Part shown: positions 486 to 57,300 of the stretch, piece by piece
How the letters are laid out: each line of letters starts with the position of its first letter
Position numbering within the stretch: the first letter of the stretch is position 1
Source of the DNA: Anadara kagoshimensis
Lineage: Eukaryota; Mollusca; Bivalvia; Arcoida; Arcidae
Assembly (NCBI GenBank): GCA_021292105.1
Contig: CM037865.1
Location: 66,151,630 to 66,215,629, forward strand
DNA: 64,000 bases
Reading direction: 5' to 3'
Program-made: the position numbers and the translations under genes
The notes under the pieces: generated by a model
What the model was told of the DNA's origin: nothing
The model's database searches: none
Seen by the model: only the letters and a program-made list of their open reading frames with translations

Positions 486-20981
<20,496 letters not shown>

Positions 20982-25845: not shown

Positions 25846-26194
25846 CAGTACAGACCAGTCAAAAGTTTAACACTGAGATAAACGAAAAGGAATAGTGGAG
25901 TTGAAAGTGGACTGCCGATTGGCCGAGATATGGAGAGTTAGTAGCCGAAAAACTCGATAAATGACGGGTGCTGAAAAAACTCGATAAATGACGGATGCTG
26001 AAAAAACTCGATAAATGACGGGTGTTGAGAAAACTCGATAAATGACGGGTGCTGAGAAAACTCGATAAATGACGGGTGCTGAAAAAACTCGATAAATGAC
26101 GGGTGCTGAAAAAAAACTCGATGTATAGCTAACGAGGGGCCAATTCGACACTAATTTGTTAGCTTAGTGTTGAACTTTCGACATGTCTGTACTG
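25846..26194. mobile_element. 349-bp non-autonomous Tc1/mariner-like element with internal minisatellite
   Basis: Left end CAGTACAGACCAGTCAAAAG and right end, on the opposite strand, CAGTACAGACATGTCGAAAG continue as inverted repeats for about 37 bp. Such ends resemble Tc1-like elements. TA follows the right end, but the left flank is TG, so the target duplication is not clean. The centre is filled by a 27-bp tandem repeat (separate entry). No transposase is present. Confidence 0.7.
25947..26118. repeat. 27-bp minisatellite, about six units
   Basis: The unit AAAAAACTCGATAAATGACG plus GGTGCTG repeats about six times with one- or two-base differences. Because 27 is divisible by three, the minus strand reads as a nine-residue peptide repeat (FSAPVIYRV); I regard that as a by-product. 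Confidence 0.9.
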
Positions 26195-33017: not shown

Positions 33018-33590
33018 TTTGATGAACATAAAAAAACCTTGTGACTTCTACATACAAAAATGCCTTCGACTTTTAGTGTACATAAAAATACTGCAGACTC
33101 TTGGTGTACATAAAATGCATTTCATTTTTAGTGTACATAAAAATACTGCAGACTCTTGGTGTACAAAATATACCAGCCACTTTTGTCATGCATGATGCTC
33201 TGGATTTTTATGTACGTAATAAGTTTTGTGTGTTGCAACTTTCGGAGTACAACATCCCAGTGAATTTTAATATACATAAAAATACCGGCGACTTTTGGTG
33301 TCCGTAAAAACCCAGCAAACTGGTGTTCATAAAACTTCTGCCTACTTTTGGTGTAATAAAAAAAACCCCGGCGACCGTAGGTGAACATAAATCTCTTGGG
33401 ATCTTTTGGTGTACATAAAATCCCGGTGAACATAAAAACGCTTGGCTACATAGTGTACAAAAAGAACAGCGAATTTTGCTGTACTTGAAAGTCTCAGAGA
33501 CTTTTGGCGTACATAAATATCCATTCAAATTTTGGTGTACATAAAAATTCAGTCGAATTTTGGTAAACATAAAAATCCCTGCGTATTTTG
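33018..33590. repeat. Degenerate ~30-bp tandem repeat (TTGGTGTACATAAAAA core)
   Basis: The word GTGTACATAAAA or a one- or two-base variant recurs about every 28-32 bases some 18 times, separated by variable words such as CCGGCGACTTT or CTGCAGACTC. The minus-strand open frames across it are by-products of the repeat. Confidence 0.75.
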
Positions 33591-34849
33591 CTATTTGGTG
33601 GAAATGGTGTTTAACGACGCATCAGCAATATGTTTTAGCTAGTCTAAACTTTTGGTCAAAATTAAACTTAATGCCAAAATGGTGTCTATTGCTTTTGTTG
33701 AATAAATGATGTAGTGGCCAGTCTCCGCCATTTACTGACAAACCATTGATCCCAATAAAAACGTGTTTCTGTTTGATATTTACAGCAAGAATGTTTTGGG
33801 CACACACACATGTACTTCGCTTCAATAAAGCTTGTGAAGAAGCTAGACTGACATCTTTGGAGTCTCTGGTGATTTTGTTGTGCACGGTGCTAAGTTTGAA
33901 TATATCAATTTTATTACGATTTATATGTTGTAATTGTGAACATTAAAATTTTTAATCAATAATTCCCCACCCTACCATTGCAAAATGAATTTAAAGATTC
34001 AATCAGATATTTTACACTCACGTAACTAACACCAAATTGGTTTCCTCCAGGTTTGCCATTCAAAGTCCTGATGTATCCACACAACTCGTTATAAATGGCG
34101 TAAAATACCGCCAACCTTTCTTAAATACTTTAACAAACTAATGTTTAAATTAATGTAACATTTATAGAAGAGAGGATTTAGATTATTTGATTAAAATCAC
34201 TTACAGATTATAATCAATAAGCTTATGTGTAAGTTGTATTTAAAACCAAATTGATTAATATACATTCACCAACCTGCACTCAGGATCTGTACTCTGTGTC
34301 GACAGGTACCCGAGCGTGTAATTATTCAAGATTATGTTTAAGTTATATAATTACATGTATATTATAGTTTGTTTAATGTAACCATTAGTCTCCCACATAG
34401 CCACTACAAATATCTTACATTGCTTCTAGATATAGCGTTCATGTGTTTCTTTCAGTATTGAGCAACACTAGCGTTGTCAATATTTGCTTATTGCTTTCAC
34501 GATATCATTATGCACTGTTTAGTGGATGGTTATTCTTATTATATAACACATAATCATGTTTGATGAAAGTTCTGAAAGTGGGATTCAGAGTGGCTACAAT
34601 TATTTTAAACACAGAAGTTATGTATTTATGGGTTAGTTGACGGATCTCTGAACTGGACTGAAGGCACTCCACGAACATAAATGTTGTTGACAAGACAACA
34701 GGACAGCCTTACACCCCCAGAACAGTCGCTTTCTCCTTCATATTAATTAGATCTGTGTGATGTGCTCCATGATTTGCCCAGTTCTTATTTGGATTATTAT
34801 ATTATTAATCCAGTATTTTCATATTGTCCCAATTATTTGGCCTTGGTGT

Positions 34850-37910: not shown

Positions 37911-40900
37911 TTATCCACTATTTAGTGTTGTATCTACATGATATACCTCTTTTCCTGCTTCCTGTCGTCTGTAATCGGCTGCTATAAAAGCTGAAAATAC
38001 ATAAATACGCAATAAAATAAAAAATACAAAGATACTTGTTACTGTGAAAGCCAAACGGGAACAGGAACATGATGACATGTCTTTAAATGCATAGAGTTGG
38101 TATAGAATCAACAAAATACGACAATATCACAAAATATACAAGATACTTAGGAGTTATCGCTATATAATATTTCTGGCTAATTTGTTCACAAGACAGACAT
38201 TCATATTGGATGAAACTGTTATTCAGACTGCATTTAAAACTTTGTATTTAAATTAATCTAGATTGTCTAGAATCTCATATTGTTTAGAACCATAGGGGTT
38301 GTGTCCCTTACTATACATTGTACAAATCGCTTGTAGGGTTAAAAATATATAATGTTGAATGGTTTAACAGTATTTACCAGTTGCTATGGTTCCCACTAAG
38401 AGTGCTACAGATACCATTATATTGGCTGCTAATACACTAACACCTGTCAACATAGCTCTCATACCTATTGTTAATAGTATTCCAAAGAACTGAAACAAAA
38501 GAAAAAAACACAAAAATGTACAAGAGAATCAAAAAGTAAAGTTTTCAACATTTGCTCTGCAACAAAGGTTATGGTGTTAACATCTACAAAATACATATGC
38601 ATAAAACACATCAGTTGACAACAAATAACATATACTCTTAGTGCAATATAATCCATTTTTATCACACGATAGTCATACGAGGACAGGTGTTCCGGAAGCG
38701 TCAGCATCTCTTGCATTCATAGCATTACCCGTCTTTGTATTCCTAATTACAGTTTATCCTTATATTTCAATTGGTATCGATAATTGTTATATGAAATTCA
38801 AAAATGCATAATATATACCTTTAAACGGTAGTGAAACATTTGCATTGAAGAAGTGTTCAAGTCAAATACTGGCATAATCTTCATCAAAGGGCAACTTTTA
38901 TCTGGATTTCCGGATGGGCATTAAACAATGAATCAATAATTTCTTCGATTTAGGAAAAAGTCAATGGTCATCAAACTTTCAACCACTTCTTTCCAGGAAG
39001 TAACTTACCTGCGCAGAAGCATTCAGCAAACCGGAAGAAGTTCCTTCCGACTGCGGATAAGTTAGTTCTGCTGCAAATTCAAAACCAACGGGCAAGTATC
39101 CAGTCATGAAAAATCTTTAAAAGTTAAAAATAAAATTGTCACTTTTAACTAATTTGACTGGAAAGATATATGTTTTGAAAACTTAATTAATTTTATATGC
39201 TGTACTAATTATTTTCTCTCTGAATTGCAATTCCGAAACAGCTCTAGGACAAAATATGATCTATGGAGGGTTTCTGTCATATAAAAGTACACAAGTTTTA
39301 TAATCAGTGGTCACAGTATGTGATTTTACTGTTGCCTTATCTTCCGATATGCAATTTTACTTGTGCCTTATGTTCTTGATTCCTTTGCTTTTTGTTGATT
39401 GTACGCTTTCCAGCAACATTATATTGTCGTGGATATGAAAATAAGTTTACAACTTAGGTTAACATTAAAATATTGCTGTGGTGAAAAACAAGATACCGTT
39501 ATGTAAAACCCCTTGCTTTGTATTCGTGGGTTTGAATTTTTTTTTGATCAGGTTTTTTGCTGCATATTTCTAGATTTCGATTAAAAAATCATACGAACAA
39601 TCTGCTTAAATTACATTTGGTTTCAAAGAAACTGTTTGTTTCACAATCCCCGTAAATCATATATATAAACCAAAAACTCGAAACGCTTTCAGTTGTAGTT
39701 TTGTTCAAGTTCAATAAATGAGAATATATTCTTATAATTAATCATGGAAAAAGTAAAACACGCCACATATCAATAATTTTGGAATATTTTTTTAAATGTT
39801 TTTGCATGGAGTGGTGTGTTTGTTTTCGATTGTATGCCAAATCAAGATGGTTTTTGGTGTAAATATGAATAAACCTGTTTTAATTTTACAACACTAGACG
39901 ACCGTTTCTGAACAAAATTCCTCAGTAGTGCTCGAAACAAAATTGTGAAAATCCAAATATTTTGAGATGTTAAAATACTTTTTAAGCCTTAGTTGTTTGA
40001 AGGATTTTGAACCATGTTTATCTGACAGTGATATGTATTGAATCCTGAGTTAACAAAACCCTCAGGTATGCTTAGTCCACAAGCAGATTCTAGCCCAGTG
40101 GTTATAATGTATTGAAATGAGACAAATAAAAAAGAACAAAAATATATTTTACTAAATCAACCTAAGACACTTAAAAACTGTTTAGATTTTGTTGTTATAG
40201 CTTGTCTGAAATAAATCGAACACAACAAAAACATCAACCGGCCATTATGCCAAGTTAACATTGAAATTAATTCAAATGAATAGACACTTACCCTAAAGAA
40301 CCTGCAAATAGAAATACGACCCATATCAAACCAATGTCCATAGTAAATGTAAAAGCTATCATTCCAACTAGTGAAAGTAAATATATCGCCACTGTAGTAC
40401 CCCTTGAAAAAGAAAAAAATAGTGACAGTTATTAATATACGGTAACTGTAGTACACCTGGAAATAACACAAATATTGAATACTGTGGTACCCCTGGAAAA
40501 CATAAATATTGAAAGTAAATATATCATCACTGTGGTGCCTCTGAAAATACCACAATTAGTGAAAGTAAATATATTACCACTGTGGTACCTTGAAAATACC
40601 ACAATTGGTGAATGTAAATATATCACCACTGTGGTACCTTGAAAATACCACAATTGGTGAATGTAAATATATTACCACTGTGGTACCTCTGAAAATACCA
40701 CAATTGGTGAATGTAAATATATCACCACTGTGGTACCTTGAAAATATCACAATTCGTGAATGTAAATATATTACCACTGTGGTACCTTGAAAATATCACA
40801 ATTCGTGAATGTAAATATATCACCACTGTGGTACCTCTGAAAATACCACAATTGGTGAATGTAAATATATCACCACTGTGGTACCTTGAAAATATCACAA

Positions 40901-43900
40901 TTCGTGAATGTAAATATATCACCACTGTGGTACCTTGAAAATACCACAATTGGTGAATGTAAATATATCACCACTGTGGTACCTTGATAATACCACAATT
41001 TATGAATGTAAATATATCACCACTGTGGTACCTTGAAAATATCACAATTGGTGAATGTAAATATATTACCACTGTGGTACCTTGAAAATATCACAATTGG
41101 TGAATGTAAATATATTACCACTGTGGTACCTTGAAAATACCACAATTGGTGAATGTAAATATATTACCACTGTGGTACCTTGAAAATACCACAATTGGTG
41201 AATGTAAATATATCACCACTGTGGTACCTCTGAAAATACCACAATTGGTGAATGTAAATATATTACCACTGTGGTACCTTGAAAATACCACAATTGGTGA
41301 ATGTAAATACATTACCACTGTGGTACTTCTGAAAATACCACAATTGGTGAATGTAAATATATTACCACTGTGGTACCTTGAAAATACCACAATTGGTGAA
41401 TGTAAATATATTACCACTGTGGTACCTCTGAAAATACCACAATTGGTGAATGTAAATATATTACCACTTGGTCCTTGAAAATACCACAATTGGTGAATGT
41501 AAATATATTACCACTGTGGTACCTTGAAAATACCACAATTCGTGAATGTAAATATATTACCACTGTGGTACCTTGAAAATACCACAATTGGTGAATGTAA
41601 ATATATTACCACTGTGGTACCTTGAAAATACCACAATTGGTGAATGTAAATATATTACCACTGTGGTACCTTGAAAATACCACAATTGGTGAATGTAAAT
41701 ATATCACCACTGTGGTACCTTGAAAATATCACAATTGGTGAATGTAGATATATTACCACTGTGGTACCTTGAAAATACCACAATTGGTGAATGTAAATAT
41801 ATTACCACTGTGGTACCTTGAAAATACCACAATTGGTGAATGTAAATATATTACCACTGTGGTACCTTGAAAATACCACAATTGGTGAATGTAAATATAT
41901 TACCACTGTGGTACCTTGAAAATACCACAATTGGTGAATGTAAATATATCACCACTGTGGTACCTCTGAAAATACCACAATTGGTGAATGTAAATATATT
42001 ACCACTGTGGTACCTTGAAAATACCTCAATTGGTGAATGTAAATATATTACCACTGTGGTACCTTGAAAATACCACAATTGGTGAATGTAAATATATTAC
42101 CACTGTGGTACCTTGAAAATATCACAATTCGTGAATGTAAATATATCACCACTGTGGTACCTTGAAAATATCACAATTCGTGAATGTAAATATATCACCA
42201 CTGTGGTACCTTGAAAATACCACAATTGGTGAATGTAAATATATCAGCACTGTGGTACCTTGAAAATACCACAATTTATGAATGTAAATATATTACCACT
42301 GTGGTACCTTGAAAATATCACAATTGGTGAATGTAAATATATTACCACTGTGGTACCTTGAAAATATCACAATTCGTGAATGTAAATATATCACCACTGT
42401 GGTACCTTGAAAATACCACAATTGGTGAATGTAAATATATCACCACTGTGGTACCTTGATAATACCACAATTTATGAATGTAAATATATCACCACTGTGG
42501 TACCTTGAAAATATCACAATTGGAATGTAAATATATTACCACTGTGGTACCTTGAAAATATCACAATTCGTGAATGTAAATATATCACCACTGTGGTACC
42601 TTGAAAATACCACAATTGGTGAATGTAAATATATCACCACTGTGGTACCTTGATAATACCACAATTTATGAATGTAAATATATCACCACTGTGGTACCTT
42701 GAAAATATCACAATTGGTGAATGTAAATATATTACCACTGTGGTACCTTGAAAATATCACAATTGGTGAATGTAAATATATTACCACTGTGGTACCTTGA
42801 AAATACCACAATTGGTGAATGTAAATATATTACCACTGTGGTACCTTGAAAATACCACAATTGGTGAATGTAAATATATCACCACTGTGGTACCTCTGAA
42901 AATACCACAATTGGTGAATGTAAATATACCACTGTGGTACCTTGAAAATACCACAATTGGTGAATGTAAATACATTACCACTGTGGTACCTTGAAAATAC
43001 CACAATTGGTGAATGTAAATATATTACCACTGTGGTACCTTGAAAATACCACAATTGGTGAATGTAAATATATTACCACTGTGGTACCTCTGAAAATACC
43101 ACAATTGGTGAATGTAAATATATTACCACTGTGGTACCTTGAAAATACCACAATTCGTGAATGTAAATATATTACCACTGTGGTACCTTGAAAATACCAC
43201 AATTGGTGAATGTAAATATATTACCACTGTGGTACCTTGAAAATACCACAATTGGTGAATGTAAATATATTACCACTGTGGTACCTTGAAAATACCACAA
43301 TTGGTGAATGTAAATATATCACACTGTGGTACCTTGAAAATATCACAATTGGTGAATGTAGATATATTACCACTGTGGTACCTTGAAAATACCACAATTG
43401 GTGAATGTAAATATATTACCACTGTGGTACCTTGAAAATACCACAATTGGTGAATGTAAATATATTACCACTGTGGTACCTTGAAAATACCACAATTGGT
43501 GAATGTAAATATATTACCACTGTGGTACCTTGAAAATACCACAATTGGTGAATGTAAATATATCACCACTGTGGTACCTTGAAAATACCACAATTGGTGA
43601 ATGTAAATATATTACCACTGTGGTACCTTGAAAATACCTCAATTGGTGAATGTAAATATATTACCACTGTGGTACCTTGAAAATACCACAATTGTGAATG
43701 TAAATATATTACCACTGTGGTACCTTGAAAATATCACAATTCGTGAATGTAAATATATCACCACTGTGGTACCTTGAAAATACACAATTGTGAATGTAAA
43801 TATATCACCACTGTGGTACCTTGAAAATACCACAATTGGTGAATGTAAATATATCAGCCACTGTGGTACCTTGAAAATACCACAATTTGAATGTAAATAT

Positions 43901-46900
43901 ATTACCACTGTGGTACCTTGAAAATATCACAATTGGTGAATGTAAATATATTACCACTGTGGTACCTTGAAAATATCACAATTGGTGAATGTAAATATAT
44001 TACCACTGTGGTACCTTGAAAATACCATAATTGGTGAATGTAAATATATCCACTGTGGTACCTTGAAAATACCACAATTGGTGAATGTAAATATATCACC
44101 ACTGTGGTACCTGAAAATACCACAATTGGTGAATGTAAATATATTACCACTGTGGTACCTTGAAAATACCACAATTGGTGAATGTAAATATATTACCACT
44201 GTGGTACCTCTGAAAATACCACAATTGTGAATGTAAATATATTACCACTGTGGTACCTTGAAAATACCACAATTGGTGAATGTAAATATATTACCACTGT
44301 GGTACCTTGAAAATACCACAATTGGTGAATGTAAATATATTACCACTGTGGTACCTTGAAAATACCACAATTGTGAATGTTATATTACCACTGTGGTACC
44401 TTGAAAATACCACAATTGGTGAATGTAAATATATTACCACTGTGGTACCTTGAAAATATCACAATTGGTGAATGTAAATATATTACCACTGTGGTACCTC
44501 TGAAAATATCACAATTGGTGAATGTAAATATATTACCACTGTGGTACCTTGAAAATACCATAATTGGTGAATGTAAATATATTACCACTGTGGTACCTTG
44601 AAAATACCAATTGGTGAATGTAAATATATTACCACTGTGGTACCTTGAAAATACCACAATTGGTGAATGTAAATATATTACCACTGTGGTACCTTGAAAA
44701 TACCACAATTGGTGAATGTAAATATATCACCACTGTGGTACCTCTGAAAATACCACAATTGGTGAATGTAAATATATTACCACTGTGGTACCTTGAAAAT
44801 ACCACAATTGGTGAATGTAAATATATTACCACTGTGGTACCTCTGAAAATACCACAATTGGTGAATGTAAATATATTACCACTGTGGTACCTCTGAAAAT
44901 ACCACAATTGGTGAATGTAAATATATTACCACTGTGGTACCTTGAAAATACCACAATTCGTGAATGTAAATATATTACCACTGTGGTACCTTGAAAATAC
45001 CACAATTGGTGAATTTAAATATATTACCACTGTGGTACCTTGAAAATATCACAATTGGTGAATGTAAATATATTACCACTGTGGTACCTCTGAAAATATC
45101 ACAATTGGTGAATGTAAATATATCACCACTGTGGTACCTTGAAAATACACAATTGGTGAATGTAAATATATCACCACTGTGGTACCTTGAAAATACCACA
45201 ATTGGTGAATGTAAATATATCACCACTGTGGTACCTTGAAAATACCACAATTGGTGAATGTAAATATATCACCACTGTGGTACCTTGAAAATACCACAAT
45301 TGGTGAATGTAAATATATCACCACTGTGGTACCTTGAAAATACACAATTGGTGAATGTAAATATATCACCACTGTGGTACCTTGAAAATACACAATTGGT
45401 GAATGTAAATATATCACCACTGTGGTACCTTGAAAATACACAATTGGTGAATGTAAATATATCACCACTGTGGTACCTTGAAAATATCACAATTGGTGAA
45501 TGTAAATATATCACCACTGTGGTACCTTGAAAATACCACAATTGGTAAATGTAAATATATTACCACTGTGGTACCTTGAAAATACCACAATTGGTGAATG
45601 TAAATATATTACCACTGTGGTACCTCTGAAAATACCACAATTGGTGAGAGTAAATAAATTTGTATTGTAGAACTCCGATAAGTAATTTTCTTTCTGATTT
45701 TTAAAACACAATATGCGGGTTGTTTGTAAAATGAAATTCAGTTTTGTCTTCCCCTGTCTTGTTTTCTTGTTTCTTCCGTTTCTTATTTCATGTTGTTGTT
45801 TGTATTGGTTTTTATCAAGTACATTTTTTCAGGTGTAAATTGCCTTTTTATATTTGTGTTATAGTTTTTGATGTGATAAGGTGATATTCTGGTGTCTGTA
45901 TGGAGATGATAACGCGATCGATTAAATACACCTTCACAAATGTTGTTTATACCAAACTTTGACTCCAAAATGGAAGTTATTGCCAACGCCGACAAAAGCA
46001 AAAACAAATACAAGGCCATTATTAAACACAATAAGGTAACAGATGTTAACAAAGCAATAACGTTATAGCAGTTGCTATTATTCCCATACTGTTTCACGAG
46101 TCATGATGTTGCACACGGTCTACACACAATTGTCTTTTGTCTTTACAAAGTTTAGGTTTTACAACACATAAATTAATCGCATCATTTACATGTAGCTAGA
46201 GCATTAATTTACTGTTTAAATTAAATACATGTATGCTGTATATGTAGTTGTATTAGTAATAAACTTTGAATGTACTAGCATGTGAATATATTTTTGTTCT
46301 AACCAAATAGTGTCCATATAATATGCTAATTTACAAACTCCAATACAAACACTTTGGTATCAAAATCAGTTCTGAGATGACGTCAATTCAACGTAATGGT
46401 GTTTAACGTCTTAGTCAAAAAGATTTTACTTACATTGAGACGTCGCCAGCTATAGGAGAAGGTGCAGACATTTTGCCTATGCGTTGTGCTAATGTCATTT
46501 ATAAAGCATTTTTTGTTTCGTGTCACGTCTACCCTGATACGGGGCCTCGTTTATTTTAAGTTCCATCCGAAAGAACCGTGACTTTTATTTCGTAATACCG
46601 AGTGCTTTGCGAAAGAACAGTCACTACCCACTTTCAAATCTTAGGTCAGACATGGCCAGGGATCGAACCCACAACCTCAACTTACGGAGCGAGATTCTAA
46701 CAATTGAGCTACCGTAGTGGTGTACTGGGATGACAGCGGAAACAGCAATAGCCTTACGGAAACTCTCTTTCAGGAAGAGGATCGAAAAACTTTTACAAAC
46801 CATGATTTGTTTGATTGAGATTCGAACTGGGAGGTGTAATGCGGTGTGATTCGAAGGCGAACCCATTTGACCGTTGAAGTTCCATACTATGAATAGTATG

Positions 46901-49900
46901 GAGAATCGAACATTAGGCAGCTACAATTCACTGAACAACTTACGGATATACAAAAAAATAAAATAACATTTTACTTAAAAGTTTTGGTTCTATCTAGCCA
47001 TATACCAGCAACTATAGATCCTAATACTCCAGCCAATACAATGGTCAAACCTATCTGACCAGCGTTTTCTTCGTGACCCTACATATAAATAAAACATAAA
47101 TTAAAAATGCAAGTATAAATAATAAAAAAGACTTCAGAAATGTTAATAAAATGATTTAAAGAAAAAGACTGGGCGTCAGTTACAATTGATATATAATGCA
47201 AATACAGATATAGCTATATAGCTGAGTAAAAAGCTGTATATAATTGTTAAGAAATCGAATTCAATCGAACAGTTTTTATTACTTTACAATCATTTTAGGG
47301 TAATTTTTACTCAAGATGTTATCAATTGGTTATGTAAAAATAGTCTTCAGTGCAAACAAACACAATAATATGATGACATTTCAACATGACCCATTTAGCC
47401 AGTTTTTATTCAATAATCAGACTTTCAGATGAAGTTAATTCCATTTCGAGTAACATTTAAGCATTGCCTGTATTTTTGTTCGGTCTATTGAGAAATAACT
47501 TGAATGAAGACTGTGTACTTTGTATAAATCAGGCGTAGACCGAACAAAAATTAAAGGCAATGCTTACAATTAAATTATATAAATAAAGAGACCAAACAGA
47601 ACAAGATAAAATGAAGAAAATTAAAAGATTATCAAACAAATAACTTTAATGTTAACAACAATGAAATATGCACATGGATTTATTATCAGGTAGCCATATT
47701 GTACAAAATCAGGCCAATGAGGAAATAATCATAACTTTTTAGCCCACAATCAGAGTGCGTATAAATGCAATCGGCTGGCCTTGGTAGAAAAAACAACCAA
47801 CAGGTCTATGAAGAAATAACTCTAACTTTTAAGACAATCAGAATCCGTGAAAATGGTAAAATTTAAATCTTAGGTATAAATAGTGATCTTACCGGAAAGT
47901 AGTATAAAACTATTGGATTAAGTAGAGTTGATATAGCATAGTATGACCCCGTGTTTATACCTACAATATAGAAAAAAGTACATGGCTTGTAAGTGAAGTG
48001 ACAATGATCATGACGATACACAAAAGTAATTCTTGAGAAATTTCTTGACAGATACCGGTGCAAGGTATTTCTTAACCAAAAGATGTTTCTTTTTAAATTG
48101 TTTAACCTCTTGATGTTCTGTGTAGGTCAATTATACCCCTATCCAAAGTTCAACTTTTACAATATCAATATATGTATGAAACCAACCTTTAGTCTAAACT
48201 GTTCTTGAAGTGAGGTTAAATGTGGTATCTGCCACTGTCAAAACCTAAACCTATATTTAGCCATATGCTATGATTGTTCAATAAACATTATCGCAACGTT
48301 GTTGATGCAACAGTGATTTAGAGATGACGTTGCTTGTCACTTACGCGGATGTTTAGTGCACTGTTATTGTCTAATATGAATGTTAAAGTAATGAAAATAG
48401 CTACAGTACTTACCATATGTTACCATGAGGATAAAGAAGCCTCTGTTCTTGAATAAAGCCGCCAGTGATTTACCATAATGTTCATTGGCAGCATGTTGTA
48501 CTGCTAGTAGTTGAGCTTTGCTTGGAGGCTGGGGAGGATTATTTTTAAATACTGAAACAAGAAATGTAAAAATCATTGTATTTAATTACCTGCCAGGACA
48601 AATGATATGTTTAAAATGACTGTAATCTTTACACAATCCAAAGATCCACAGACATTGCAATACAGTGCATTTCACAAAGCTTATTCTAAAAGGTTTGAAT
48701 GTTTTGAAGAACATTTTATGACACACGTATTCATACAGAATTACACTCATGTTATCAATTTATCGTCACCCATTTCACCCATAGAGAGATTGAACTATCT
48801 TTACGTGCACTAAACATGTTTATGTAATGTCCAAGATCCTAAAAATTGCTTATAATTCTGGGAAGTTTGAGGTGTCTAGCTGCATTCTATGACAAAGGAC
48901 ATTGGACATACAATAAAGTTTATCAATTGGATATGAAGATCTCCTATTGATAGATTAGATAGATTCAGATTTAAACAAAAACACGTTTCTGCATAAATAT
49001 ATTTCTTCCATATCGACCAGGTTGGCTGTATGATACTGCGTCCAATTTAAAGTATTTAACAAATAGTGTTTCGCTATTAGATTTAAAACTTATTTTTTAG
49101 TTTTCAGTTTTCTTTAACAAAATATAGTAATGATAAACCTTTAAGCTTTTGCTTGCCTTCCTCAATATAGAAAATGAATCGGGTGTGCTTAAACAACGAG
49201 TTTATATGCTGTTTAAATATTGAAATTGTACTGCCATGATAAAGCAATGTATTTCTGTTTTTATACTATATCTACCATGGAAATGACCCTGTCCCCAAAT
49301 TGGACTTATTTTAGTTGTCCTTATTTTGACCATTATGGCATGCGTGACCTGGACATAGTTTGTGGACAATATGAAGGACATTGTACGGTTGTAACGTTTA
49401 TCCTAATTATAATATGACGTTGCTTTAATACGAATCTTCAAACGAAGATTTAAACCTTCCTTTTACTGATAACATATAATATGGTTGGTTGTTGGGCTAC
49501 TGTTCAGGAAAATAAATCTTATTTTCGTTTAAAAAAAGTAAATGCCTATCTAGAGATACTACTGATTGTAAACCAATGTGTTCTTAGTGTCTTGTAGGTC
49601 ATTCAAAGCACAACACTGAACGATGTTTGTCCGAATTCGAGAGTTGTTTGTGGTTGCCAATTCTGACAACTAGTGCTGTGTATTTACGAAGTGTGGCAGT
49701 TAAATAAGATTTATTTATCTAAATATTGCATAATAATATAAAACTGTAAACTTGCTTACGCGCTCATTAAACGTATTAATAACAAATAACGATGTATCCA
49801 TGTAGAACTGGTTGTAAATGAAATCATTTCAACGTTAAAGCATTCTAAATAGTTGTTGATGTGACGTAAAACAACATTAAAACAATTCCATCTACTTGCA

Positions 49901-51344
49901 CTGAAGTTTGACCCATAATATTTCAACACTGGCGAAATATATTTAACTTGAGGTGACCTTATATGCATATTTTTCCTACTAGTATTTTCAAATTGTTCCA
50001 AAATTTCTAAACGCTTTAAAATACAAAATCTCATTTCCCTTCTGACATCATTTTTCGGGTCGCTCAATACAATAAGCGTCATTCTATATAAAGAAAAATT
50101 CACCATAGTAGAAGTTTCAAGGAAACGGTTATTATACCCCCTCAAACTAGGGGGCATATATGTCGTCTGTCTGACTGTCCATGTAAAAGCGTGTACCGAC
50201 CATGTCTCATAATTGATTTTGACGACTGTCATAAAACTTGACATAAATTATCTTCATGATCCAAAGGTGTGCCATGACATTGAACCAATGCCATATTGTA
50301 AAGGCCAAGGTCACGGGAAACATTTAATGTTGGGGACAGTGGTATTTGGCTCTCAAGAGACAGTTGATATTGATATTGCTATTAGTGGAGTATGGTATCA
50401 GTTGAACACTTGAGTATTCGAAAGATAATACGAGAAAGAACAGTTGATAGGATATTGGTGATTAAAATCTATACTACCATGCTTAGGGAAGGACATCTTA
50501 TTGAAATCTAAACTATCAAGTCATGGAAATGACATCTTAATCTTAAATCACACATTATAATTTCCGTCTGTCACTAACAAGAACATAAAATCGTCATGAT
50601 TTGACATTGGCCGGTCCCTAGTTTTAATAAAAAAGGAAGGTTTCTATAACATATTATTATAATATTGAAATATCGACCAACTGTATATAATATTGCCGTA
50701 TAAATCGGTGGTTATACATGTATGACAAGGTTAATATCACACAACTGTGTTTATCATTAAAACAAACATACCAGCCCATGTTCGAATGAGAAAAAAAACA
50801 AAAAGCAAATTCAGTGAAACACTTGAACTTCCACCGGGGAAGTGAGACCGGATACGTCGGAAGGATGATCACCTATTGTTAAACTAGCTTCAATCACCCA
50901 ACGTCAATGTAAAGAATAGGTCAGACGTTCTCACATTGCCTGTTTCGTCTCAAATTGATGACATTGAAAATGATAAAATTATATCTAGACACTTCCGTTT
51001 TTCTAGATACAGATAAGCCACCAAATACCATAATATTTTGCATTTCCATTGTGGAAACTTATATGTAATGCTTACAATTTTCACATTTTTAAAATGCAAT
51101 TTTCTCATTTTCTTATCATTCATAAAAACGATATATCAATCAATCAAGTTGTTTGACATAGATTTAAGGTGTAGATAACAGTTACATATTATCGTGTCAG
51201 TGTTTCCTCGAGTCACTAACCGATCAAGAATTTTATTTTTCTCTTTTTTACATTTTGTAAATGTTAGATACTTAAGCTTATTATACAGAGGTTTCCGTTA
51301 TTTTTATATACTGGCCCAGAACAGTTTACAAGCTGGTTCTTCAT

Positions 51345-51395
<51 letters not shown>

Positions 51396-54300
51396 TTGTG
51401 TTTACGTTCATTTGGTTGCTAGAGACCCCCGCTGGTCGGGTGGTCTAATACGTTGGCTTACGGATCACAGCACCTCGAATCACTTAGGATCGAACGCCAC
51501 TTGATCGGGCAGATCCCATGTGTGACTGTCTTTCTGTTGACTTGCCGAAGGTAGTGGTTTTCTCCTGGCATTACGATTTCCTGCACACTCTCTGAACTGC
51601 CCGTCTCGATATAAGTAAAGACTCTTGAATGGGCGTTAAGCCCAATTACTCCACTGCACTTCACTTATTTTAATATTGCACAGTATCTTCCCACTGTGCG
51701 TGCGATATTGACCACATGGTCACACGTGAACACATCTTACATACATGCATAGAGAAAAGAAGGACTTCAATTATTGAGATATTATACATGTATATTTCAG
51801 GTCGATATACGAATTAACATGTATCTATAACTATTTTATTTTGTTATCAATTCACAACTCAGTAAATAACGATTTTCAAAGATCAAAGGGCATATTTGTA
51901 TTTTATCTTCCTGTCTCTACAACCCACGCATAAATAATTAGAAACGCTAGAATATTCAGTGTATCTAAATCAATTTCTATCCAGACAGTATTAAAAGTTA
52001 GTAACAAATAATGAATCTTCCTGTGTATTAGAGACACTAATAAAGAAACTGAAATCATAGATATTCCCACGAATTACTGTGAATGACATACTATACCAGT
52101 TTCGGTATACAATTCCTCATCAGTAGTGCTTGGACCAAAATTATGAAACTATTTTTTTCCAAGATGTTGAAAAGAAACCCAAAGGACCAAAATACATATT
52201 ACCATATTTAACCAAGGAAATACTTTGCATGAAGGAGTATACCTTAGTTTTTGGGGAATTTCAAATTTTTCAAATTTGAACTAGCAGCAAATTTAGACAA
52301 TAGTATATTTATGACAAGAAAACACAGTTATTGCCTACTAGGTTTGGGATATCCTCGGGGACTGAACAAGTGAATAAAACAATACATAATTTTCTAGGGG
52401 TTTGCAATTTCCGTTTACGGTAAGTTTTGTTAAGATATACAATTTCATTGACATGTAATTTCGTGGATCAGGGTATTCTCGAAAACATAAAAGTTAAGAC
52501 ATCACGGGGAAAAAATAATGGCACAGTATATTCTTGTATCACATCACTGTTGAACAGGGAAAACCAGAAACACGCACCTGATTAATATTATTACATTATT
52601 ATTAAGTTTGTCATCAGATGTACACTTAAATAGTTGTTAATTCCATTTTTCGATCCTCTTTGGTGCATTTTCATAGTATGCAACTGTTATATACAACTTT
52701 ATTGAATTTAATCATAAAATACATTAAAAAGTGGTATATGTCACAACTAATAATTATAGTTCCATAACACAGAAACGTACAAAGACAGATGGCGGAAAAA
52801 CTGTTTTGTTCAAGGACACTGATTCCCCAACTAATGGCGGAAATAATTCCTTAACATCTTACGCAACAGCTGTTTTCATAACTAACGTTTATGCCATTTA
52901 ACTTTTTAAACTCGAACTCATTTTTCATTTTGGAAATAAAATGCACGTTAAAAATTATTTTTAATTTTAACAAAAGGTCCAATATGGTCTGTATCGCTCA
53001 CCTGTGCATAATCAACACAAAACACAAGGGATACTACATTTCAGGTAATAACTCTGATGTGGATATTTAGATATTTATGAAACTTGTACTTAGTTAGATT
53101 CTATCATGGAGAGTGTGGCGACACCAACCTCTATTATTTTAACCCGGAGAGTGTGGGGACACCAACCTCTATTATGTTAACCTGGAGAGTGTGGCCACAC
53201 CGACCTCTATTATGTTAACCTGTCAACATATATTCATGATTGCATGATATTTTGTTACAACATTGACCTGTCCTTAACAGACACAATATACCATTCTATC
53301 TCAATGCTTTTTAACCTGAACTGTATGGAAGCAAACCTTGGCATGTATACAAAACAGACATAATTGCTGAGAAGAATGAATCTAATGTTCTTCATCTTCC
53401 TGTGAAACATTGTGAATTCAATCCGATGGAGTTGACATGGCTCAATGTAAAGCTTCCATTCCGAAAAATAACAAAACAAGTAAACTAGTTGACACAGGAA
53501 GACTTATTCTCAAGTTTTTTAACGTTATTACACCAACTGTGAACTTTCTTGAATAACTGTGGAAAACATGATACGAAAGTTGAAACAGGTTATTGGCATT
53601 CAAACGCATAAGTCCAGTGTTACTGACCATTTTGTCATTAGTTTAATTCAGACTAGAGTGATACAGTGATTTAAATGCAGATTTAAGCAAGTGTCGAAGA
53701 TAATGGCATCAGTTTGAATTTTTAATGTTATAATAAAATGTTTATTGTCATCAAACGGATATTTCATATGAACCCATATGAAAGATCTTTTAGTTAAGGA
53801 CTTTTTGTATAAAAATAGAGAGCCATCGCTAACACATTGAAATGATTTTGTACAATTCTATGTAAGACACTTATATTTATATTTACAATCAAACTGCTCC
53901 AAAATTTTATCGCGATTTTTTTAAGAATTAAAATATTTTTTATACAACATGACACTATGTGACGCCATAAGATGTAGCAGCCGATGAAAAAGAAGTATTG
54001 ATTACGTCATATGTTGTGCACGCACTGGACGGCAAACATGGTCTGACAATGCACTTATGTTTTATCACAGAGTAAATATTACAATGTTTTGTAGGTTTTG
54101 AAGAGGAACTCTCTATAACATATCAATCACTAAATACGCCGGCGTTTCAAGACTCGATTATAAGTGAGACTGAGAGCACATGGGTCCTATAGAAATTAAA
54201 CTTACCAATTAATATAAGTATAAATACTAGTGTCATGACACCGGCTCCTACATAGAACATAATACTCAAATCTTCTCCTATCTCATCTATAGTATCACTG

Positions 54301-57300
54301 TTTGGCACCAAGACTGGAGGAATAAGAAAACCAACGGCTACGCCTACCTGTCAATATATAACACAATGCATCAACTACAAACACATATACAATCAAAAAC
54401 AAACATACTAATCCATGTCCGAATCACAATCCAGAAGCAAAGTAAAAACTTTGGAACTGACAAGATAGGTTAGACACGTGAACTTCCACCAGGGAAGTGA
54501 GGCCGGGTGCTCCGGAAAGGATAAACCTTAAATAACCTTTAAGGGTTGATTAGTAATGAAACGGTCATCATGTTCGGTGACTGCGTGAAGAAGAAATGTT
54601 TATAATCGTCGGTTTTATGATATACAATCATCTTTTGTATTATACAACTATTACGAAATAATCATTATAAAAAGCATATCAATCCATATCCAAATCACAA
54701 TACGTGTAACACGTATACCCTAACCATGCAAAGGAGACCGGGTGCTCCGGAAGGTTTAGCACCTAATATTTAGCTCGCTAAATCCATCATCTGTGTAATA
54801 AAAATTGCGAATGATACAGGAGATTTGATATAATGGATTTATGTTATTGCATTGAGCCGCCATGGGGGTTTAGACAATAGAGGCATTATTGCCTTCCAAT
54901 GGTCAATACATGCCAAAATGACCAGCGTTATATTTACTTAGATATGAAGCCGGGAATACAATAAACAAATAACAAATTTCAAATGTAAAAATAACGTGTA
55001 TGATTTTTTCTCTTAAGTATCTGACCTTTTGTATTCTTATACTTTTTGTGCTATCTTTGTCATCTAAGTATTATTTGGTATGAGTCATACGTGTAATTAA
55101 TACATAACAATATTTCTTTTTCCCAGAATACAAAGTGAAAGTACAAATTATATAAGACAGGTATTTTGTTAAATACAGAAAAATGATATATATACCCTTT
55201 TATGTTTTAAGTAACACAATGACATTGTGGCAATGACCGATATAACAAATGAACAATTAGTATTATTGTATCCCAAACATTTGTTTTGATAATATAATCT
55301 TTCTTGGTATAGTATGGTGATACTTTTCAGCTTTCTCGTTTCAAAACAATTTAATTCTATCTTGGATATTTTAAAAATATGAGTTGTGCTGTTGTTCACA
55401 TTTTATTTAACCTTCAGGCTGTGCTTTCACTTTGTTGGATAACACTGGTGTCCAGGAAAGCATCTTCATATTTATTTACTTACAAGTCTGTTTAATTATA
55501 AGATTTCGTGAGATTCACAGAACAGGTAAACAATCACAAATGATCCATGTTCAAATCACAATCCAAATTTAAAAAAATGTTAAAACTTTGAAATTGAAAA
55601 ATCTAACATGGAAACTCTAGGACGTCAAATATATCCAGGATATTTTTGGAATTCTGACATCGATATTTTCCTTACGGTCATAAAGCTTTCCGTGGGCCTA
55701 GATATTCCTAGGGTTGCAATCACCCGAGTCAAAATACGTATACATTTGTAAGCAGCTTGCTTAGTTATAACATGGAACTCTAAAACGCCAAATATATCCA
55801 GGATAATTTTGGAATTCTGACATCGATATTTTCCTTACGGTCATAAAGCTTTCCGTGGACCTAGATATTCCTAGGGTTGCAATCACCCCGAGTCAAAATA
55901 CGTATACATTTGTAAGCAGCTTGCTTAGTTATAACATGGAACTCTAAAACGCCAAATATATCCAGGTTAATTTTGGATACTGACATCGATATTTTTCTAA
56001 CGGTCATAAAGGTTTCTGAGGGCCTAGATATTCCAAGGTTGCAATAACTCTGAGTCAAAATACACTTGTAAGCAGCTGGCTTAGTTACAACAAAACTGGA
56101 TATATCATTTTAAAATTATACAGACAAGATGCATGATAGAATCGTTCAAAGCTAATTAAATCATTTCTTTGTGTGCCACATGCTACAAAAATAGCAATCC
56201 CCTTTAACGATTAAAAAACATTTTTTAATCTTAAAAAAAAACTTTTTCATATAAAATATAGACAGGCCCCAATAGAGCATTTAAATTAAAAAAACGTCTA
56301 CTTTTACGAAAACTTGTTAGTACTATAGCTTATTCGTGTACTGATATTGATAAAAAATAAAAATACATTTAAAATGTAGGGATACAGTACGAACACGGAA
56401 TGACAGAAAGAATGACAGAAAATTTATTTTAAGGGAGTGGGGGGTTAAAATGTAAGGACTTCATGCTTCCTGAACCATAACTGTGTTACAAATGAACAAC
56501 ACTCCGACAACTCCCAATCCTGGATCTGAACAGATCTTGTTTTTTGGATTTTAGCATTGATAGTGTAGTGTTATGGTCTATACAAATACACAAATGTGAA
56601 ACGACAGAAGGTATACACAATTAGGTCGCTTATCTCAAGGTCAGGTGTTATCAATGAACGTGGATAAAAAGTGACACAAAGTTGAATAATAATGCCAACT
56701 TAAACGAAACATCGAACATGTGCGAGTTTTATATATACAAACGATCCACTAAAACTAATACTAGTGTCATGTGCTACTTTTGAATTATATCTTTTTTATA
56801 AAATTCAAAAGGAGCACATGACACTAAAATAAATTTATTTTTGTCTCGTTTTCTTTTCTATTTATCTGTTGTGTGTCGTGTTCTTGGATGCATTTAATTC
56901 CACTAAAAACGTGTGTAATCTATAGTGTTATGTTCTGGAGCTGCAAAGCACCTGTTTTTATCGTAATAGCTACATGTTTCGCAAAGGAGTTTGTACACAA
57001 ACACACTGGCGAATACGTTCGATCAGTATTAGAACAAAAGATGAGTATTTATTGATTGACTCTTGCTTATGGAAAGAAAAAATAAATGTAAGACTTTTTA
57101 ATTGTTACTCACCTGGTTTCCGAACACTCCTATAGAGGTGGCTGTAGAAACCTCATTTGGACCAAACCAGACTGCTGCTAACCTTGCAGGTATACCAAGA
57201 ATAAATATTTGAGCAATGGCGCAAATTGTTTGTGCAGCCATTAACAGAGCAAAACGGTCTGGTGAAATACATGCTACTTTGAGCCATGCTCCTAAGGCGT

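Follow-up and report, generated by a model that had tools for sequence, protein, structure and literature searches.

In the 64,000-nucleotide stretch of Anadara kagoshimensis DNA analysed here (contig CM037865.1 of assembly GCA_021292105.1; hereafter the window, in whose own numbering all positions are given), most of intron 5 of a gene for an FLVCR-type transporter consists of a minisatellite of about a hundred 49-nt units, and the comparisons described below strongly support that this array grew from the gene's own intron 5/exon 6 border. We consider it quite probable that the array is a splice-border minisatellite, or "mirage", carried as a mostly tolerated passenger of an intron whose true acceptor is still used.

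The gene lies on the minus strand, from 57703 down to 37911, and its model comprises nine exons and eight GT-AG introns with a single, intact open frame of 483 aa. The encoded protein aligns over residues 27-473 of 483 with solved FLVCR2 (8qcx, E=1.5e-155) and over residues 45-477 with solved FLVCR1 (8ubw), and by this full-length homology, together with the intact frame, the gene can be assigned, at the level of sequence, to the FLVCR transporters. A protein search of the genome found, at its sensitivity, no second FLVCR copy: the nine matches are the nine exons of the gene itself, so that no paralog is usable as an outgroup. Exon 6 (40292..40402, minus strand, 111 nt) is placed by the gene model and by the alignment to FLVCR1/2, and intron 5 (40403..46974, minus strand, 6,572 nt, phase 2) by the gene model.

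Tandem Repeats Finder (TRF) delimits the array at 40510-45660, with a period of 49, 105.3 copies and 96% matches; this span takes up 78% of intron 5, or about 80% when the degenerate ends are included. Our own parse with a common anchor gave 108 places, the first of which is exon 6 itself, leaving 107 copies, and the spacing is exactly 49 nt in 75 of the 107 intervals. The first-pass annotation of this stretch, which described a giant intronic minisatellite beside exon 6 and placed it at 40292..45669, was thus right about the array, although 40292 is the far end of exon 6 and not the start of the repeats.

Homology between the array unit and the exon border

When circularised, the unit aligns to the border (40292-40425) with a local score of 51, 38 of the 46 columns being identical over 40365-40410, and the aligned stretch begins in exon 6, crosses the acceptor and ends in the intron. 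A chance similarity of unit and border, both of which are AT-rich, can be regarded as refuted, and we assign it a negligible probability: the highest scores were 29 in 5,000 dinucleotide shuffles of the unit and 33 in 5,000 of the border, i.e., never above 33 in 10,000 shuffles, and the second-best score of the unit against the 18 FLVCR exon ends, taken in both orientations, was 19. Compared with the rest of the window (1,748 comparisons), the unit scored at best 27, bar one segment (44) that overlaps the same exon border. The match of the unit to the start of exon 6 through the acceptor AG, already noticed at first pass, is therefore well above what shuffled controls reach.

The 49-nt unit corresponds to a 51-nt source segment (40369-40419) with 11 substitutions and one 2-nt deletion. 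Just behind the AG it is two bases shorter than the border (CAAG/GTACC versus CAAG/GGGTAC, the slash marking the splice position), and a decoy acceptor would therefore normally be out of frame, which corrects the first-pass description. The match is weakest in the A-rich intronic tail, for which the similarity of the unit by itself would be unconvincing. Homology of the tail is carried instead by the copy next to the exon (u1, see below), which matches the border over its full length with a score of 50.5, against a maximum of 39 in 5,000 single-base shuffles.

Edges and interior of the array

Starting from the exon, and always on the minus strand, we distinguish the source segment (unit 0, 40369..40419), composed of 34 nt of exon 6 and 17 intronic nt bearing the true acceptor, whose cut points are a convention, tandem repeats having no natural unit ends; a degenerate first copy (u1, 40420..40471); a partly deleted copy (u2, 40472..40507), with a strong decoy acceptor (AG 40493, CCAG/GGGTACC); the array body of mostly 49-nt units (u3-u107, 40508..45639); and a degenerate unit at the far edge (45640..45681). 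The first copy, u1, begins at 40420, the base directly after the source segment, with no gap between them; it contains a strong decoy AG (40457) and the motif TAATAAC (40428-40434), and resembles the border (50.5) more closely than the array consensus (35.5). The far-edge unit is equally near to both, scoring 30.5 against the border (reached by none of 3,000 shuffles) and 30.0 against the consensus (reached by one of 3,000). Taken alone, the sequence at 45660-45720, beyond the TRF end, is at the level of shuffles, 1,198 and 1,572 of 3,000 of which reach its score, and for this reason just one far-edge unit is claimed. A role for microhomology in the TAGTGA repeat (40369 and 40420) was also considered and dropped, since the start of a segment is repeated in any tandem duplication.

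Border and consensus differ at 18 columns of a MAFFT alignment, some of which are alignment effects, as the CCCCTTG stretch is poorly placed; at these columns, border states number on average 4.0 in u1-u4 and 0.375 in the other 104 rows. The exon-like GTGAAAGTAAATATAT is kept in u4 and almost in u3, and the border-state A at column 11 is confined to u3, u4 and the unit at the far edge. At column 22 both states occur along the whole array, 37 units having that of the border, and at several columns no copy has the border state, partly through misplacement of CCCCTTG by the aligner. Since border states are concentrated at the edges, both edges look older than the middle. The gradient described at first pass, with exon-like units nearest the exon, is thus recovered, and the exon-like A is seen at the far edge as well.

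The interior of the array is homogenised and its boundaries are diverged. The 104 core units u4-u107 share a mean pair identity of 94%, and a block of six successive units reappears identical 34 units on, a sign of larger block duplication within the array. The main AG module is present in 98 copies (40420-45660), and AAG/GTACCA occurs at 87 places. With the founder segment, the first broken copies and the amplified body lying side by side, the birth of a minisatellite seems to be readable here in order.

We also noticed that most body units (40508-45639) read CAAG/GTACCA, with an acceptor-like AG directly before a donor-like GT, a layout that we take to resemble recursive splice sites.

Direction of copying and uniqueness in the genome

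Exons can in principle be born from repeats, and the AT-rich unit might be thought of as an independent or dispersed repeat that landed beside the exon, or as an array from which the exon start was captured. This explanation is largely refuted, and we regard it as very improbable. Of the first 14 residues of exon 6, seven are common with FLVCR2 and seven with FLVCR1, versus four and five, respectively, in the reading of the unit; the conservation of the exon start in the solved proteins points to the exon as the source and to the array as the copy, and the direction from exon to array is supported in this way. In addition, all 84 matches of a 30-nt unit pattern, allowing up to 3 mismatches, in the 1.1-Gb assembly fall within the array (40569-45584), with no match on the other strand and none in a reversed control, and all 21 matches of a DNA search of the assembly are at the array locus; both searches score only the best candidates, and the pattern search would miss more diverged copies. 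Copies at unrelated loci, which would suggest a dispersed satellite or a mobile-element minisatellite and which the first-pass annotation had named as evidence against its reading, were thus not seen in this genome within that reach. Taken together, the alignment, the states of the edge units, the position of u1 directly on the border and the uniqueness in the genome strongly support the earlier inference that the array arose from a duplicated intron/exon border.

We suggest the following course of events. A tandem duplication would have copied approximately 17 nt from the end of intron 5 together with 34 nt from the start of exon 6, and unequal exchange or slippage could then have expanded the duplicate to about a hundred copies. 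The middle copies would have been homogenised, with the edge copies and the exon itself left out.

Comparison with known splice-border repeats

Repeats of this type have been described before. The globin and Adh3 genes of amphioxus contain tandem duplications of intron/exon borders, named "mirages", whose interiors are homogenised with the edges excluded, whose length is unstable (6 and 3 copies of the BflGb6 mirage in two haplotypes) and which apparently leave splicing undisturbed (PMC3087553), and further amphioxus mirages were reported in TnC and PGBD5 (PMC3902484). Human ABCA7 intron 18 contains a variable number tandem repeat (VNTR) with a 25-bp unit that includes the exon 18 donor and is present in about 12 to 427 copies; skipping of exon 19 rises with VNTR length, and expression is lower (PMC5954066).

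The FLVCR array resembles the amphioxus mirages (Adh3, BflGb6/BflGb9, TnC and PGBD5; units of 10 to about 160 bp) in that its repeats span a duplicated intron/exon boundary and are homologous to the authentic border, in carrying splice signals in many copies and in its homogenised interior (PMC3087553; PMC3902484). It differs from them in the gene, in the bivalve host and in scale, with around 100 copies of 49 nt here against 3 or 6 copies of 150-160 bp in BflGb6 and units of 60 and 108 bp (3 x 108) in PGBD5. Like the ABCA7 VNTR, it is intronic and has the adjoining exon's splice site within its unit, but the ABCA7 unit carries the donor (GT) side and the FLVCR unit the acceptor plus about 34 nt of coding sequence; moreover, variation in length, correlated with splicing, is known for the ABCA7 VNTR (PMC5954066), whereas the FLVCR array is known from the sequence of one assembly. 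Rogers' model of intron gain through tandem duplication of AG/GT proto-splice sites (as cited in PMC3087553) likewise starts from sequence containing splice signals that is duplicated in tandem, but in FLVCR an intron between conserved exons has been lengthened. The phenomenon is rare but not new, and, judged by the copy numbers given for BflGb6 and PGBD5, the FLVCR locus is a new and unusually large example of it. Among the open-literature papers listed, others being judged by title or the opening of the abstract, we recognised no further splice-border minisatellite, and none in a mollusc; the bivalve case extends a phenomenon that the literature examined had shown in amphioxus alone and, as a donor-side case, in human.

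Splice signals and predicted folding

Splice sites were scored with weight matrices and a branch-point consensus (TACTAAC) taken from general knowledge. The true exon 6 acceptor (40402) scores 9.58, the highest among the eight real acceptors of the gene (2.49-9.58), and the body decoys (TTTTCAAG/GTAC and ATTTTCAG/AGGT) lie mostly at 3.6-4.8, apart from three that score 2.27 and one that scores 6.74. High-scoring AGs are also present in intron 5 outside the array (9.22 at 46450 and 8.61 at 46725), which indicates that score alone does not decide use. The TAATAAC motif of u1 agrees with the branch-point consensus at 6 of 7 positions; its A lies 27 nt before exon 6, with no AG between, and it is downstream of every decoy. 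From the far end of the array down to the 17 intronic nt of unit 0, the intron consists of array-derived sequence, and the branch point used for exon 6 is therefore probably located within a copy of that exon.

Use of a decoy is predicted to lead to a stop codon in 101 of the 102 cases read (counting, for the CAGAG variant, the downstream AG only), in 66 of them 21 codons on. In the remaining case exon 6 is read through, but not in the FLVCR frame, and we therefore rejected an in-frame extension of the exon by decoys.

The array also seems prone to fold. In a structure analysis made post hoc, after the sequence had been seen, two two-unit RNA pieces of the array were predicted to fold much better than shuffles (z -4.6 and -4.9), and no excess over shuffles was found for the exon border RNA (z +0.8) or for a piece of intron 5 used as a control (z -0.2). 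Against doubled shuffled units, a more stringent control in which the tandem layout is preserved, the consensus dimer remained at z -3.2, one of 500 controls being as low, and the source dimer was at z +0.6. The predicted energy is -9.3 kcal/mol for the source dimer and -34.3 to -34.9 kcal/mol, by register, for the unit dimer, and the same 11 substitution types placed at random reached -34.9 in 8 of 2,000 trials. The mean for 98-nt segments is -31.7 in the array (n=103) versus -14.2 in the gene's remaining introns (n=191, with a minimum of -35.7); the three array segments closest to the exon have values of -12.4 to -15.6. As single-stranded DNA, the array shows a smaller folding excess (z -2.2 and -2.8). 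The predicted unpaired probability averages 0.24 in the decoy acceptor stretches (sd 0.10, n=96, up to 0.68) and 0.45 at 200 other intronic AGs, and ranges from 0.28 to 0.52 in the real acceptors (n=8; 0.39 at the true exon 6 site). The modelled pairing effect on the decoys is thus moderate, and it is absent from the two strongest of them.

One may speculate that the 11 substitutions and the 2-nt deletion made a strongly self-complementary unit out of a segment without structure and brought the body decoys into hairpins, and that either the palindrome drove the expansion at the level of DNA or selection kept the decoys folded. Such self-silencing would let about a hundred splice-site copies be carried without harm, but we hold it only tentatively, as an unlikely addition. 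The predicted folding could reflect hairpin-driven expansion as well as decoy masking, and covariation of the hairpin across units, judged by eye only, gives no support for selection on structure, since the common TATCAC variant disrupts a pair and no compensating change accompanies it.

Consequences for splicing

A tolerated passenger is the most likely functional reading of the array, and splicing is expected to be mostly normal. The true acceptor would still win, since it has a full pyrimidine tract and, downstream of every decoy, the branch-point-like TAATAAC motif, whereas at the body decoys tracts are short and pairing is partial. The array would lengthen the intron and cause at most low-level mis-splicing into the copies, and the mis-spliced transcripts would have premature stops and probably decay. 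The "about 105 decoy acceptors" of the first-pass annotation hold as a count of copies (98 with the main AG module), but most body decoys are low-scoring, the decoys are on average more base-paired than the real acceptors, and their use would nearly always lead to a stop.

Several observations weigh against a harmless array. Intron 5 pairs its strong acceptor with the weakest donor of the gene (46975, TAA/GTAAAA, score -0.14). The two decoys adjoining the exon match the true site in score (10.08 for AG 40457 and 9.66 for AG 40493) and, with predicted unpaired probabilities of 0.30 and 0.36, are within the range of real acceptors. In the array, 119 of 232 AGs reach the lowest real acceptor score, versus 22% of 581 other intronic AGs. 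A branch-point-like motif with 5 of 7 matches accompanies 94 of the 98 decoys, better than in six of the eight real introns and equal to one, and the decoys are thus not clearly dead on linear signals; the idea that they are excluded through a missing branch point was rejected on this ground. Lastly, the comparable human ABCA7 VNTR accompanies changed splicing (PMC5954066).

It could thus be argued that the decoys are functional, the copies competing with the true acceptor and the array length tuning FLVCR output via unproductive splicing or exon 6 skipping. The body decoys do score within the range of the gene's real acceptors, the edge decoys and branch-point-like motifs just mentioned are consistent with competition, almost every decoy read leads to a stop, and ABCA7 offers a precedent in the correlation of VNTR length with exon 19 skipping and lower expression (PMC5954066). 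We nevertheless find such a role unlikely, given that the body decoys have lower scores than the true site and are more paired than real acceptors (mean unpaired probability below the whole real range), and that amphioxus mirages seem not to disturb splicing (PMC3087553; PMC3902484). With its hundred or so near-identical acceptor copies preceding the real one, the locus provides a natural test of how the spliceosome chooses between true site and decoys, and of a possible tuning of the conserved transporter by array length.

Other repeats and features of the window

Six other tandem units of the window (15477, 21045, 25948, 33068, 33502 and 53107) scored at most 24 against any FLVCR exon end, and none was shown to be a border copy; the comparison covered these six consensus units, the 55604 array, the remaining TRF rows and the window's other genes lying outside it. 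Within the FLVCR gene, intron 1 contains a second minisatellite (55604-56092, 163-bp unit, 3 copies by TRF) and intron 2 a further one (53107-53222, 38 bp x 3.1), the latter with no match to a FLVCR exon end, as well as a 163-aa open frame (49756-50247, minus strand) for which no Pfam match was found. In intron 5, upstream of the array, the segment 46627-46870 looks by eye like a candidate tRNA-derived short interspersed nuclear element (SINE), and GGTTCGATCC, on its minus strand, is presumably B-box-like.

Outside the gene, we observed a minisatellite at 25948-26114 (27 bp x 6.2), with no match to a FLVCR exon end, and, at 33053-33592, degenerate repeats of 28 bp and 55 bp clustered around ACATAAAAAT. 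A perfect 41-bp tandem duplication (15477-15559) is apparently located inside a neighbouring WD-repeat/bromodomain gene, recognised by a weak WD40 piece at 1189 and bromodomain pieces at 14409 and 16964, which we take to resemble BRWD/PHIP.

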